Shown: piece after piece, positions 55,163-59,327 of the stretch | Layout of the letters: every line of letters begins with the position of its first letter | Position numbering within the stretch: the stretch's first letter is position 1 | Origin: Flavobacteriaceae bacterium UJ101 | Lineage (GTDB): Bacteria > Bacteroidota > Bacteroidia > Flavobacteriales > UJ101 | Length of the DNA: 64,000 nucleotides | NCBI GenBank assembly: GCA_001880285.1 | Contig: CP016269.1 | Location: forward strand, 62,001 to 126,000 | Direction: 5' to 3' | The notes under the pieces: model-generated | The model's input: the letters and a program-made list of their open reading frames with translations, nothing else | Databases searched by the model: none | What the model was told of the DNA's origin: nothing | Made by a program: the position numbers and the translations under genes

Positions 55163-55263
55163 CAAAAAAATCTTCTTAAGATTAAAGAATTCTTTAAAAA
55201 TTATATAAAAATTTGATACATTAACTATATTTCATATATTACAGTATTAAATTGTGTAATTTT

Positions 55264-56244
55264 ATGAAAATTGTTTTTTTATTGTATCCTTGGGAAACTA
55301 TAAATCCCAAGAAAGATACTAGTATCATACTTATTCATGAAGCTTTAAAACGAAATCATGATGTATATATCACTTTACCAGAAGATATAATGATGAGTAA
55401 AGGGAAAGCAATGGCTTTAGCTCATAAGCTATCAAATTTCACTATCTCTAAAGCTTCAAATGATTCTGATTATCAAGAATTTTATCAAAATCTTATGCTA
55501 ACATCTGAAACTATTATTTTGAAGGAAATAGATACTATATTCATTCGCTCCAATCCTCCCATAAATCCTTATACCATGGATATATTGGAAACGGTACAAG
55601 ATGATGTGTTTATTTGTAATTCCATTCGAGGTTTACGCAAAGGAAAAACCAAAATATATACTGCACTAAATGATGATGGATTAGGAACCGTCACCCCTAT
55701 TACACATATCACACGCAATATTGATCAAATTGTAGATATCGTCAAGAATTCAAAAGAAGAAGGTATGATTTTAAAACCTTTAGACGGTATGGGTGGAAAA
55801 GGAGTTTTGAAATTAAACAAAACGATGACGTCAAATTTACGTGTTATTTTAGACTATTATTTGGTAGATGGAAATTACATTATACTCCAAGATTTCATTA
55901 AAGGAGCTGAAAAAGGAGATACCAGAGTTTTAGTATTAAATGGAGAACCTATTGGTGCCATTCAACGAATTCCAGCACAAGGAGAACATCGATCTAATTT
56001 ATCAGCAGGAGGAAAAATGGAAATTGCAGAAATTACACCTGAAATTGAAAAAATTTGTAACTTTATTGCACCTAAATTAAGAGAAGATGGTCTTTTCTTT
56101 TGTGGATTAGATATTATTTCAAATCAATTAGTTGAAATCAATGTTACCAGTCCAGGAGGAATTAGAGAAGTCAATCAAACCAATCAGAATATTCGAATTC
56201 AAGAAAAAGTGATTGATTTTATAGAACAAAAGATAAAGGAATGA
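55264..56244 (+). CDS. gshB: GshB-type ATP-grasp ligase (glutathione synthase-like)
   Basis: The ATG at 55264 was chosen over the one at 55252 as MKIVFLLYPWETI is the usual family start; the protein then has 326 residues. It shows the GshB set: IKEIDTIFIRSNPPINPYTMDIL region, ILKPLDGMGGKGVLKL (ATP loop, about 171-186), GDTRVLVLNGEPIGAIQRIPAQGEHRSNLSAGG in pieces (about 219-251) and VEINVTSPGGIREVNQ at the end. E. coli GshB joins gamma-Glu-Cys and Gly. No gshA is nearby. It overlaps the next gene by 4 nt (ATGA), so the two products are made together, and the partner suggests a wider role than glutathione. Confidence 0.88.
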   Translation: MKIVFLLYPWETINPKKDTSIILIHEALKRNHDVYITLPEDIMMSKGKAMALAHKLSNFTISKASNDSDYQEFYQNLMLTSETIILKEIDTIFIRSNPPINPYTMDILETVQDDVFICNSIRGLRKGKTKIYTALNDDGLGTVTPITHITRNIDQIVDIVKNSKEEGMILKPLDGMGGKGVLKLNKTMTSNLRVILDYYLVDGNYIILQDFIKGAEKGDTRVLVLNGEPIGAIQRIPAQGEHRSNLSAGGKMEIAEITPEIEKICNFIAPKLREDGLFFCGLDIISNQLVEINVTSPGGIREVNQTNQNIRIQEKVIDFIEQKIKE

Positions 56245-58244
56245 AAAAATTAAGTACAGACGAATTTATCCAATATATTGAAAAAGAAGAACTATTTGAA
56301 GCCATCCATAAAGATGGCTCTTTTAAATTAAAGATTGAAGATTATGCTCCTTACATCTGTGGGGCTGTTCATAATGGACATAATTTTAGAAAGGAGCTTA
56401 AAAAACAAACCATTTTATCTGAGTATGAACGTTGGTATGAAGAAGATCCTCATACAACCGATTTTATATCTTCTTTCCCTATCGTTATAGAAGGTTGTGA
56501 TTCTCGATTTGAATACGATTTAAACCGTACACCTGAAAATGCAGTATATGAAACAGCTTGGGGAAAACAATGTTGGAAAAAACCTTTAACTAAGAAACAA
56601 AAAGACGTTAGTTTAAAAAAACATAGTGAGTTTTACCGCGTTGTTCATGCTCTCGTTAAGAAAATTGAAGAAAAACACCAAGCTTGTATTGTTTTTGACA
56701 TTCATTCCTATAATTACCGCCGTTGGGATCGCCCCGTTCCTGTATTCAATGTTGGAACAGAAAATGTAGACAAGCGTAAATACAAATCCGTTATTCAAAC
56801 TTGGCTACATGAATTATCTAAAATAGAACTCCCTGATATCAAAAACACCACAAAAGAAAATGATGTTTTTTTAGGTCGAGGCTATTTTTTACAATACATC
56901 ACAAATCATTTCAACAAAACACTTGTTTTGGCTACTGAAGTTAGCAAAGTCTATTGTGATGAATTAGCTGGCACCTCTTACCCTAGCGTTATCAACGCTG
57001 TTAAAGAAGGTTTTAAAACCGCTATTGTAAACACGGTTATGGAATTTACTCAAAAGAAAACCAATCTGGTTATTAAGAATAAAGTAAACCTTCTGTCTTC
57101 TGAAATTGATCCTGATTTATTAAAAGTAGATACACAGCTTTATAATCTTACAAAAGATTTTGAATTGTTGTCTATCATAAACCCTATAAACTTAGAAGCT
57201 GAAAAAAAGAAGTTTTTCAAAGGTAAGTTTAAAAATAATCCAGAATTTGTATACAAACAATTGAATTCTAACCCTTTTGAATTTAAACGTAAATTAGCTT
57301 CAATTCCTGTAGAAAAGATTAAAGATATTAACATTCAAAGTATGTATGTTGATACAATTAATGCTTTTATGGACAAAGTAGATTTAATTGGTAATCTGGA
57401 TTCTGATAAGTTTTTATATAATTCTCTTCGCTATTTTGGAGAACCTTCTAAAAAAGATATTGATAATGCACAGTTCTTAATGTATTGTCCTGAATTTAGA
57501 GATGCTAAAGACCAAGAAATTTATACTTCTAAAGAAGCTGAACGATTATTTTTAGAAGCTGCAGAATATTATGGATTTAAATTTAAAGTAGCTACAAATC
57601 CTCATATTGTTTCTAAAGCTCTAGTTTTAAACAGTAAAAGAACTGTAGTATTAAAGAAAGGAGCAAAATTTTCAAAACGAGGTATTGATGGTCTAGTAGA
57701 ACATGAAATTGGTGTTCACATGACTACCACCATGAATTCATTAATGCAACCTTTAAAAATATTCACAATCGGATTACCTGTTAATACCATGACACAGGAA
57801 GGTTTTGCTGTACTATCAGAATATCTTTCTGATAATATGAATTTAACCCGTCTGCGTGAATTAGCAATACGTGTACTTGGAATTCGCTCAATGGTGGAAG
57901 GAAATGATTTTAAAACAACCTTTTCTAAATTAGTTGAAGATTATGGTATGACGCCTGATGATGCTTATTATTTAAATACTCGTATTTATCGTGGTGGTGG
58001 TTTTACTAAAGACTATTTATATTTAAAAGGATTATCTACTATTCTACAATATCTAAATCAAAAAATTCCTTTAAAAAATATGTTAATTGGAAAAACCTCC
58101 ATTGAATATCGAGATATTATTTATGAAATGGTTGAACGTGATATGCTAAAACCAACAAAATATTATACTAAGGCTTTTGCTGAATATGATGAAACTAAAA
58201 AATTAAATCCAGTTCTCAAATATATTTTATCAGGCTTAAAATAA
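56241..58244 (+). CDS. Two-domain formylglutamase / DUF1704 (QEGLA) metallopeptidase
   Basis: The 667-residue cytoplasmic protein is of the TIGR02421 type, named flavohemoglobin expression-modulating QEGLA motif protein. The N-terminal part (about 1-275) resembles N-formylglutamate amidohydrolase, with YICGAVHNGHNFRKEL, ACIVFDIHSYNYRR and FLGRGYFLQYITNHF. The C-terminal part (about 290-667) is DUF1704, with VEHEIGVHMTT (His488, Glu489, His493, an HExxxH site) and TQEGFAVLSEYLS (Glu520). The same fold occurs in human MATCAP, a tubulin-tail carboxypeptidase. The stop of the ligase overlaps its start by 4 nt. Its substrate is unknown. Confidence 0.88.
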   Translation: MKKLSTDEFIQYIEKEELFEAIHKDGSFKLKIEDYAPYICGAVHNGHNFRKELKKQTILSEYERWYEEDPHTTDFISSFPIVIEGCDSRFEYDLNRTPENAVYETAWGKQCWKKPLTKKQKDVSLKKHSEFYRVVHALVKKIEEKHQACIVFDIHSYNYRRWDRPVPVFNVGTENVDKRKYKSVIQTWLHELSKIELPDIKNTTKENDVFLGRGYFLQYITNHFNKTLVLATEVSKVYCDELAGTSYPSVINAVKEGFKTAIVNTVMEFTQKKTNLVIKNKVNLLSSEIDPDLLKVDTQLYNLTKDFELLSIINPINLEAEKKKFFKGKFKNNPEFVYKQLNSNPFEFKRKLASIPVEKIKDINIQSMYVDTINAFMDKVDLIGNLDSDKFLYNSLRYFGEPSKKDIDNAQFLMYCPEFRDAKDQEIYTSKEAERLFLEAAEYYGFKFKVATNPHIVSKALVLNSKRTVVLKKGAKFSKRGIDGLVEHEIGVHMTTTMNSLMQPLKIFTIGLPVNTMTQEGFAVLSEYLSDNMNLTRLRELAIRVLGIRSMVEGNDFKTTFSKLVEDYGMTPDDAYYLNTRIYRGGGFTKDYLYLKGLSTILQYLNQKIPLKNMLIGKTSIEYRDIIYEMVERDMLKPTKYYTKAFAEYDETKKLNPVLKYILSGLK

Positions 58245-58424: not shown

Positions 58425-59327
58425 ATGAGAAAAAGAGTATTTGTTGTGATAACAACTGTTGTAATGTGCACCTATTTAATAGCACAGGTTGGAATTGGAG
58501 TTAACGGTAGCAGTATGTCCCCTTCCGCTGTATTAGAAATCGTAAGTCAAACAAAAAATCAAGGAGTTCTATTCCCCAAACTAACAACCGCCGAAATTTT
58601 AGCCATTACAAATCCTGCCCAAGGACTTTTAGTATACAATAAGGAAAGTCATTGTATTTATATGCATAATGGAACTACATGGCTTTCAAGCTGTGGAATT
58701 GCACCTAATTCTTCTGCTGTAGATCAAATTAGTTATAATGCATTGGGTTATGTCTCAAATGGATCAGCTAGTTCTGCTGCCGAAAACCTAACCATTCCCA
58801 ACACAAGTATTACTGCTGAAAAAAAAGCCTGTTATAATAACACAATCAACAATCATGATTATTGCGCCTATCAATTATCTACGGGTGTTACATGGCAAGA
58901 TGCTTTTAATTTAGGAAAAGAATTAAAAGGTTATTTGGTTACGATAACAAGTGATGCTGAGTGGTCTTTTATAAAATCTTCTGTTATTGGTGGTTCAGCA
59001 ACCTTTGATTTAGATAACAATATCTGGATTGGTTACAACAGAGTTAGCTATCCAGGTAACGATGCTGAATTTATGTGGATAACCGATGAAAAATCTTTAA
59101 TTAATTGGAGTAATAATTCATCAACACAAAATAATTTCAATGCAGGAGAACCTAATGACTCAGGAGGTAATGAAGGTTGTAGTCATATATGGCATAATGG
59201 TAGTAGTACATCTGATAGAACTTGGAATGATGAAGATTGTACCTCTACAGAAGTAGGTTTTGGGTTATTTAGTACTGATCGTCCTTTTGACCAAGTAATC
59301 ATTGAATTTGAATCAAACAACCAATAA
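58425..59327 (+). CDS. Exported C-type lectin-like surface protein
   Basis: The 300-residue protein has a signal peptide (cleavage near LIAQVGIG, residue 20), then a stalk of the form VGIGVNGSSMSPSAVLEI, GVLFPKLTTAEILAITNPAQGLLVYN, seen at the head of many flavobacterial surface proteins. Residues about 130-300 make a C-type lectin fold: GYLVTITSDAEWSFI, IWIGYNRV (WIG), the sugar motif EPN (242-244) in NAGEPNDSGGNEGC, and WND (267-269) in RTWNDEDC. EPN plus WND is the calcium site for mannose-type sugars. There is no T9SS tail, so its surface route is unclear. Confidence 0.87.
   Translation: MRKRVFVVITTVVMCTYLIAQVGIGVNGSSMSPSAVLEIVSQTKNQGVLFPKLTTAEILAITNPAQGLLVYNKESHCIYMHNGTTWLSSCGIAPNSSAVDQISYNALGYVSNGSASSAAENLTIPNTSITAEKKACYNNTINNHDYCAYQLSTGVTWQDAFNLGKELKGYLVTITSDAEWSFIKSSVIGGSATFDLDNNIWIGYNRVSYPGNDAEFMWITDEKSLINWSNNSSTQNNFNAGEPNDSGGNEGCSHIWHNGSSTSDRTWNDEDCTSTEVGFGLFSTDRPFDQVIIEFESNNQ

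Follow-up and report, generated by a model that had tools for sequence, protein, structure and literature searches.

In the genome of Flavobacteriaceae bacterium UJ101, a stretch of 64,000 nucleotides (contig CP016269.1, positions 62,001 to 126,000; hereafter the window) carries two overlapping genes, one encoding a GshB-like ATP-grasp ligase (LIG1) and the other a protein in which an N-formylglutamate amidohydrolase-like (FGase) domain is fused to a MATCAP (DUF1704) gluzincin domain. The ligase and the FGase/MATCAP protein form a conserved, functionally linked module. We give a probability of about one half to the reading that the pair acts as one cytosolic module that forms a small acidic peptide or amino-acid conjugate and trims it. 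The conserved linkage, the fusion, the intact active sites and the separation from glutathione synthesis were observed directly, and a joint amide-forming and amide-cleaving module is likely, given that the genes adjoin and are coupled, that the two hydrolases are fused and that the active sites are intact.

The LIG1 gene (55264..56244; all features of the pair lie on the forward strand) encodes 326 amino acids with matches to PF02951 (GSH-S_N, 4.7e-22) and PF02955 (GSH-S_ATP, 1.3e-54). A TTG at 55252 is a possible alternative start; the ATG at 55264 was preferred because relatives begin likewise, with MKIVFLLYP. The fused gene (56241..58244, 667 amino acids) shares the four nucleotides ATGA with the ligase gene (56241..56244). 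The junction reads AAAGGAATGAAAAA, with a Shine-Dalgarno-like AAAGGA within the ligase gene just 5' of the ATGA overlap. The FGase-like amidohydrolase domain (56349..56915; Pfam match at residues 37-225, structural domain about 1-274) matches PF05013 at 9.6e-13, with 49.2 bits against a cut-off of 28.9. The MATCAP domain (57207..58229; residues 323-663) matches PF08014 at 4.1e-91 and contains the motifs HEIGVH (488-493), QEG (519-521) and GGGFTKD (585-591). The initial annotation of this DNA had described a GshB-type ligase overlapping the next gene by 4 nt, and a formylglutamase-like and DUF1704 fusion with the first two of these motifs; both open reading frames, the ATGA, the domains and the motifs were confirmed. 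The fused protein also passes the cut-off of the NCBIfam family TIGR02421 "QEGLA" (351.3 bits; cut-off 338.65). No signal peptide was evident in its sequence, and the protein is presumed to be cytosolic.

A scan of GTDB genomes for the MATCAP domain found 585 relatives, and loci were counted among the best 80 of these 585. A GshB-like ligase was found nearby on the same strand in 72 of the 80 loci, and the other eight comprised one locus at a contig edge, three that also lacked FGase and four true exceptions. In an independent sample of 198 evenly drawn Bacteroidota genomes, MATCAP occurred in 12 and a close ligase in 13, with both in 11, where they were always adjacent (hypergeometric 3e-15, kinship ignored). 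Every genome of this sample with an FGase-linked MATCAP carried the adjacent ligase (11/11); the sole MATCAP genome without a ligase (G186) had the stand-alone type, and the two ligases without MATCAP were weaker matches from one genus. Both counts bear out the functional link proposed in the initial annotation, for which rare adjacency in relatives had been named as a refutation; adjacency was common. The same annotation had treated the FGase half as secondary, which did not stand: FGase was present in 11 of the 12 Bacteroidota MATCAP loci, stand-alone MATCAP came without the ligase, and the FGase half is essential to the picture of the module. Among the best 80, the closest relatives by MATCAP domain were Empedobacter and Algoriella (61-62%). 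The ligase and FGase-MATCAP open reading frames overlapped in 54 of 60 relatives, and the ligase and FGase-MATCAP distances correlated with an r of 0.68, compared with a permutation maximum of 0.18. Adjacency spanned Bacteroidota, Gammaproteobacteria, Rhizobiaceae and a metagenome-assembled genome (MAG) labelled Verrucomicrobiota, with differing outer neighbours and three gene arrangements.

An AlphaFold model of the fused protein was built with 63 homologues (pLDDT 92.9, pTM 0.90), and its domains were compared with the PDB. The MATCAP part (residues 310-667) resembled human MATCAP (7z5g) with a Z of 26.7 and a root-mean-square deviation of 2.8 Å over 296 residues, and was also similar to DUF885 and M32 carboxypeptidases. 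Among the 63 homologues, its residues H488, E489, G491, H493, E520, G521, K590 and D591 were invariant and Q519 was nearly so. The fold and the invariant HExxxH + Glu agree with the earlier assignment of the peptidase half as MATCAP-type; by the model, the fold is genuinely that of MATCAP and the catalytic residues are in place, and carboxypeptidase activity is predicted. The FGase part (residues 25-273) resembled N-formylglutamate amidohydrolase (2q7s, Z 24.8; 2odf, Z 22.2) and, more distantly, M14 carboxypeptidases (Z 11-13). In this part H44, R64, E68, R89 and D153 were invariant, and D69, T72, D93, N95, R96, H155 and E233 nearly invariant. The ligase shares with GshB and with a second ligase family, LIG2 (described below), the invariant residues K130, K171, R95, R221, R235, R243, N245, D283, E291 and N293, among which K130, K171, D283, E291 and N293 are ATP/Mg positions. 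The catalytic residues are conserved in ligase, FGase and MATCAP, and three intact enzymes are therefore predicted.

The best solved relative of LIG1 is the E. coli glutathione synthetase 1gsa (phmmer E 2.4e-42), but several results separate the pair from glutathione synthesis. The initial annotation had noted no gshA nearby, and a search of the complete 3.07-Mb genome of the window detected neither PF04262 nor PF04107, the two common gshA families (controls positive); a PF08886 search of this genome gave no match, and its control matched nowhere either. The bacillithiol gene bshC was present, so that bacillithiol is the expected thiol. Among the 46 hosts searched, PF04262 was absent from every one outside Gammaproteobacteria; it was present in 19/19 gammaproteobacterial hosts. 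Of these 19, 18 carried a canonical gshB (261-276 bits) besides LIG1 (about 183-203 bits), the remaining host being a 2.1-Mb MAG. In the ligase tree, the canonical GshB clade (100/99) lay apart from LIG1, as did LIG2, which formed a clean clade (100/100); the long branches of the window and Empedobacter ligases make the root of this tree untrustworthy. The GshB-fixed residues K96, T298 and C299 (window numbering) were replaced in LIG1, while as an exception the window ligase keeps K16, K17, R301 and E302, which are lost in most LIG1 proteins. LIG1 fell short of both equivalog cut-offs for glutathione synthase (PRK05246, 265.6 vs 272 bits; TIGR01380, 246.5 vs 299.05 bits). The gshA search, gshB co-occurrence, tree and residues thus agree with the earlier view that this is not ordinary glutathione synthesis, which is disfavoured, and the conserved residues predict that LIG1 is an active ligase. 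The second refutation named in the initial annotation, ordinary glutathione synthesis with a gshA elsewhere in the genome, therefore did not come about in the gshA families PF04262 and PF04107.

In the first of the three arrangements, found in the window, many Bacteroidota, Photobacterium, Shewanella, Marinobacterium and Thalassomonas, LIG1 is followed by the fused FGase-MATCAP gene. FGase and MATCAP are fused in most loci; in Flavobacteriaceae they are separate adjacent genes, and this second arrangement runs from an SDF symporter through LIG1 and often a 3-mercaptopyruvate-type sulfurtransferase to FGase and MATCAP. In the third arrangement, found in other Bacteroidota and on Rhizobiaceae plasmids, FGase is followed by a MATCAP protein of 610-650 amino acids and then by LIG2. 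Both ligases flank one FGase-MATCAP set in two flavobacteria (L017 and L018). The N-terminal 240 residues of the MATCAP protein in the third arrangement, which gave no Pfam match, were a degenerate FGase (hhalign 97%, E 8.6e-11) with all metal and catalytic residues lost; the adjacent free FGase retains every one of them. This remnant points to the descent of the third arrangement from a fused FGase-MATCAP ancestor. The architecture whose MATCAP protein bears a metal-less FGase remnant is new here, and so is the recurring linkage of the module to an acidic-amino-acid symporter. The linkage of ligase and hydrolase may have been predicted earlier, as the 2009 survey of ATP-grasp amidoligases by Iyer and Aravind reportedly covers related neighbourhoods. 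In ten flavobacterial loci (L014, L015, L017, L018, L020, L097, L100, L104, L102 and L106), the gene immediately 5' of the ligase encodes this symporter, which is of the SDF family and Glu/Asp type. It retains the acidic-substrate arginine motif DRPLDMCRTVVNVTGD, the arginine of which reads an acidic side chain in GltPh.

FGase chemistry concerns N-acyl-glutamate. Because of this chemistry, the deglutamylation carried out by eukaryotic MATCAPs and the acidic-amino-acid symporter upstream in the ten loci, Glu or Asp would be the most likely building unit. Besides Tyr, MATCAPs of eukaryotes take off C-terminal Glu and polyglutamate (PMC10499314). The literature searched offered nothing on what reactions the DUF1704/QEGLA proteins of bacteria catalyse. 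RNA-seq of Photobacterium damselae at 1% vs 3% NaCl showed RS17020 "GshB" to be up 38.4-fold and RS17025 "QEGLA" up 27.5-fold, and the paper treats RS17020 as a glutathione synthetase, linked to virulence (PMC10308900). RS17020 and RS17025 are most likely LIG1 and FGase-MATCAP, because their locus tags are adjacent and related Photobacterium genomes share the order. This suggests that the pair forms a single operon linked to the response to low salt.

In the mechanism that we propose, the ATP-grasp ligase would activate a carboxylate with ATP and join it to an amine, yielding an amide, as is expected from its conserved active site; gamma-Glu-Cys and Gly are probably not what it joins. The fused protein would then act through two metallo-carboxypeptidase-type sites predicted from their metal ligands, the FGase-like amidohydrolase and the MATCAP-type gluzincin. 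Both sites would hydrolyse amide bonds beside a free carboxylate, most likely on the ligase product or its precursor. The module may cycle, with the same bond made and broken, or may just as well run in sequence, first ligating and then trimming. That both enzymes act on one substrate is plausible; we infer this sharing, the chemistry and the acidic nature of the substrate from the observations above. Of the make-and-break system proposed at the outset, the linked pair, the distance from glutathione and the MATCAP fold stood, whereas action on the same bond and a protein-tail target are hypothetical.

Several points weigh against a make-and-trim module of this kind. FGase-MATCAP occurs without an adjacent ligase at the four exceptional loci (L059, L072, L073 and L089). 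The symporter is restricted to the flavobacterial branch, with a distant second SDF gene in one Colwellia MAG, and the identity of the P. damselae pair comes from locus-tag order and related Photobacterium genomes. No computation in this analysis identified a substrate, and the evidence linking both enzymes to the same substrate is purely genomic. Moreover, unless the two activities are regulated, a simple cycle in which ligase and hydrolase are induced together looks futile; this speaks for the sequential version.

A sequential biosynthesis is possible, if on the whole unlikely: here the ligase would attach an amino acid to a carrier or precursor, after which FGase and MATCAP would release a finished small molecule by trimming at another bond. 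Analogues are LysX/LysK acting on LysW and the amino-acid-addition/peptidase systems on scaffold peptides. Translational coupling and the apparent co-induction fit successive steps better than a futile cycle, and in several flavobacteria the sulfurtransferase, a 3-mercaptopyruvate-type rhodanese, lies inside the operon. However, neither the window nor most of the relatives have a conserved gene for a small carrier or precursor beside the pair. Some Flavobacteriaceae encode a protein of 108-109 amino acids between the sulfurtransferase and FGase genes (L020:8112-8438, L102:6766-7095, L106:6735-7064), which is weakly TerB-like in L020 and has no Pfam match in L102; as a partner, it is limited to these few Flavobacteriaceae. 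A LysW-like carrier was rejected, since most loci lack a conserved small gene, and LIG1 reached 39.1 bits vs the LysX cut-off of 275.6.

A cycle on protein tails is quite unlikely; in it, the ligase would couple an amino acid to the C-terminus or a side chain of a bacterial protein and FGase-MATCAP would remove it, in the manner of TTL/TTLL, CCP and MATCAP on tubulin. The kinds of enzyme do match the tubulin cycle, with an ATP-grasp ligase, an M14-like fold (FGase vs carboxypeptidases A/B, Z 11-13) and MATCAP, and eukaryotic MATCAPs deglutamylate. The MATCAP of the module also resembles human MATCAP more closely than do the stand-alone QEGLA proteins of bacteria: a 208-residue fragment of human MATCAP scored 38 bits with the profile of the first arrangement, 33 with that of the third and 13 with the stand-alone type, and in a single-sequence PDB search the window protein matched human MATCAP at 1.6e-5, while a stand-alone QEGLA protein gave no match. 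These values are search scores, not a tree, and hint that the MATCAP lineage of the module is closer to the ancestry of human MATCAP. The ligase, on the other hand, falls with GshB (148.7 bits to 1gsa, against 55 to RimK structures) in a subfamily that acts on small peptides. It falls far below the cut-offs for the RimK family (88 vs 143.4 bits) and MptN (111 vs 350 bits), as well as CofF (22.8 vs 300 bits), and no protein target gene is linked to the pair. A broader version is distinctly doubtful: a bacterial "tail code" in which the ATP-grasp ligase would attach acidic residues to a bacterial target and the double carboxypeptidase, M14-like and MATCAP, would take them off again, with the tubulin-trimming MATCAPs of eukaryotes acquired from the MATCAP lineage of this module.

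Unrelated roles, with the genes adjoining by inheritance only, are very unlikely: the four loci with FGase-MATCAP but no adjacent ligase and the many stand-alone MATCAP genes of Pseudomonadota would fit, but adjacency across distant phyla despite differing outer neighbours and three arrangements, together with the open reading frame overlap in relatives, speaks against them, and the adjacency counts largely refute this explanation. Least credible is an ordinary glutathione synthase whose neighbour degrades or recycles glutathione-like peptides, a reading that follows the database name and the resemblance to E. coli GshB but was rejected on the lack of a gshA of PF04262 or PF04107, the presence of bshC, the separate clade and the changed residues.

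Other identities were also considered. PADLOC anti-phage profiles matched neither protein, and a defence system was rejected. A partner of RimK in S6 glutamylation was likewise rejected, the single PF02955 match in the window genome being LIG1, with no RimK seen. A stand-alone MATCAP gene lies divergent beside rimK, another ATP-grasp ligase, at one locus (L149:153-1058 and 1375-2727), possibly by chance, and this neighbourhood was treated as isolated. The sole phage record with MATCAP, also stand-alone, was Pseudomonas phage Y1 (L167; OQ572403.1 59521-68087, UNVERIFIED), which looks like host-chromosome contamination because lysS, a TetR regulator, an OmpA-like gene and other bacterial genes adjoin. 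A phage link was rejected, and the window domain matched nothing when searched against viral contigs.

In the window, the pair is preceded by a RimO-like radical-SAM gene and followed (58425-59327) by a gene for a C-type-lectin-domain protein of 300 amino acids, probably secreted; neither was among the recurrent neighbours in the relatives' loci examined. In a Colwellia MAG (L098:9569-11707), a protein of 712 amino acids combining an SDF symporter with a periplasmic amino-acid-binding domain is encoded 480 nt downstream of FGase-MATCAP. Some genomes, namely G210 (Shewanella, L159), G324 and G344, contain at least two MATCAP copies; in Shewanella nanhaiensis, for example, no ligase was seen within roughly 0.5 to 1.4 kb of a second FGase-MATCAP. 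Among 299 Pseudomonadota sampled, MATCAP occurred in 29, mostly as a stand-alone protein of 430-470 amino acids without an adjoining GshB-like ligase.

The database names of the pair, glutathione synthase and haemoglobin modulator, appear wrong or empty, and at least one published transcriptome, that of P. damselae, most likely reads LIG1 as a glutathione synthetase (PMC10308900). The spread of the module over Bacteroidota, Gammaproteobacteria and Rhizobiaceae means that an undiscovered amide metabolite or modification may exist. With a bacterial MATCAP beside an ATP-grasp ligase, the family of enzymes that shorten microtubule tails can also be approached in a tractable bacterial system.

Compared with E. 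coli GshB (1gsa), LIG1 has the same GSH-S_N/ATP-grasp two-domain architecture, the ATP/Mg residues and R210/R225/R233 (E. coli numbering). It differs in its separate clade, in the changed GshB-fixed substrate-side residues, in its linkage to FGase/MATCAP and in its Bacteroidota hosts without detected gshA. The MATCAP half shares with the tubulin detyrosinase/deglutamylase MATCAP/TMCP (KIAA0895L, 7z5g) the fold, the HExxxH + E metal site and the GGxFTKD/GxFSKD motif, but the window protein is bacterial, presumed cytosolic, fused to FGase and encoded with an ATP-grasp ligase, and has no tubulin substrate. The FGase half has the fold and the EEDxxT, DLNR and DxHS motifs of its family (2q7s, 2odf; PF05013); it is not the true N-formylglutamate deformylase HutG (TIGR02017; 13.1 vs a cut-off of 278.75 bits), it is fused to MATCAP, and it has a degenerate pseudo-copy in the third arrangement. 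The window protein passes the cut-off for TIGR02421, the "flavohemoglobin expression-modulating QEGLA motif protein", a name that says nothing of the chemistry, as had been remarked at the outset. Unlike it, the stand-alone type of Pseudomonadota (430-470 amino acids) has neither the FGase domain nor an adjoining GshB-like ligase. Known pairs of an ATP-grasp ligase and a peptidase are CphA/CphB, LysX/LysK, RimK/RimB and TTL/CCP/MATCAP; to our knowledge, none of them joins a GshB-type ligase to an FGase-MATCAP double hydrolase, and what the present module has in common with them is that ATP drives amide formation and that an amide hydrolase is encoded alongside or serves as the counterpart.

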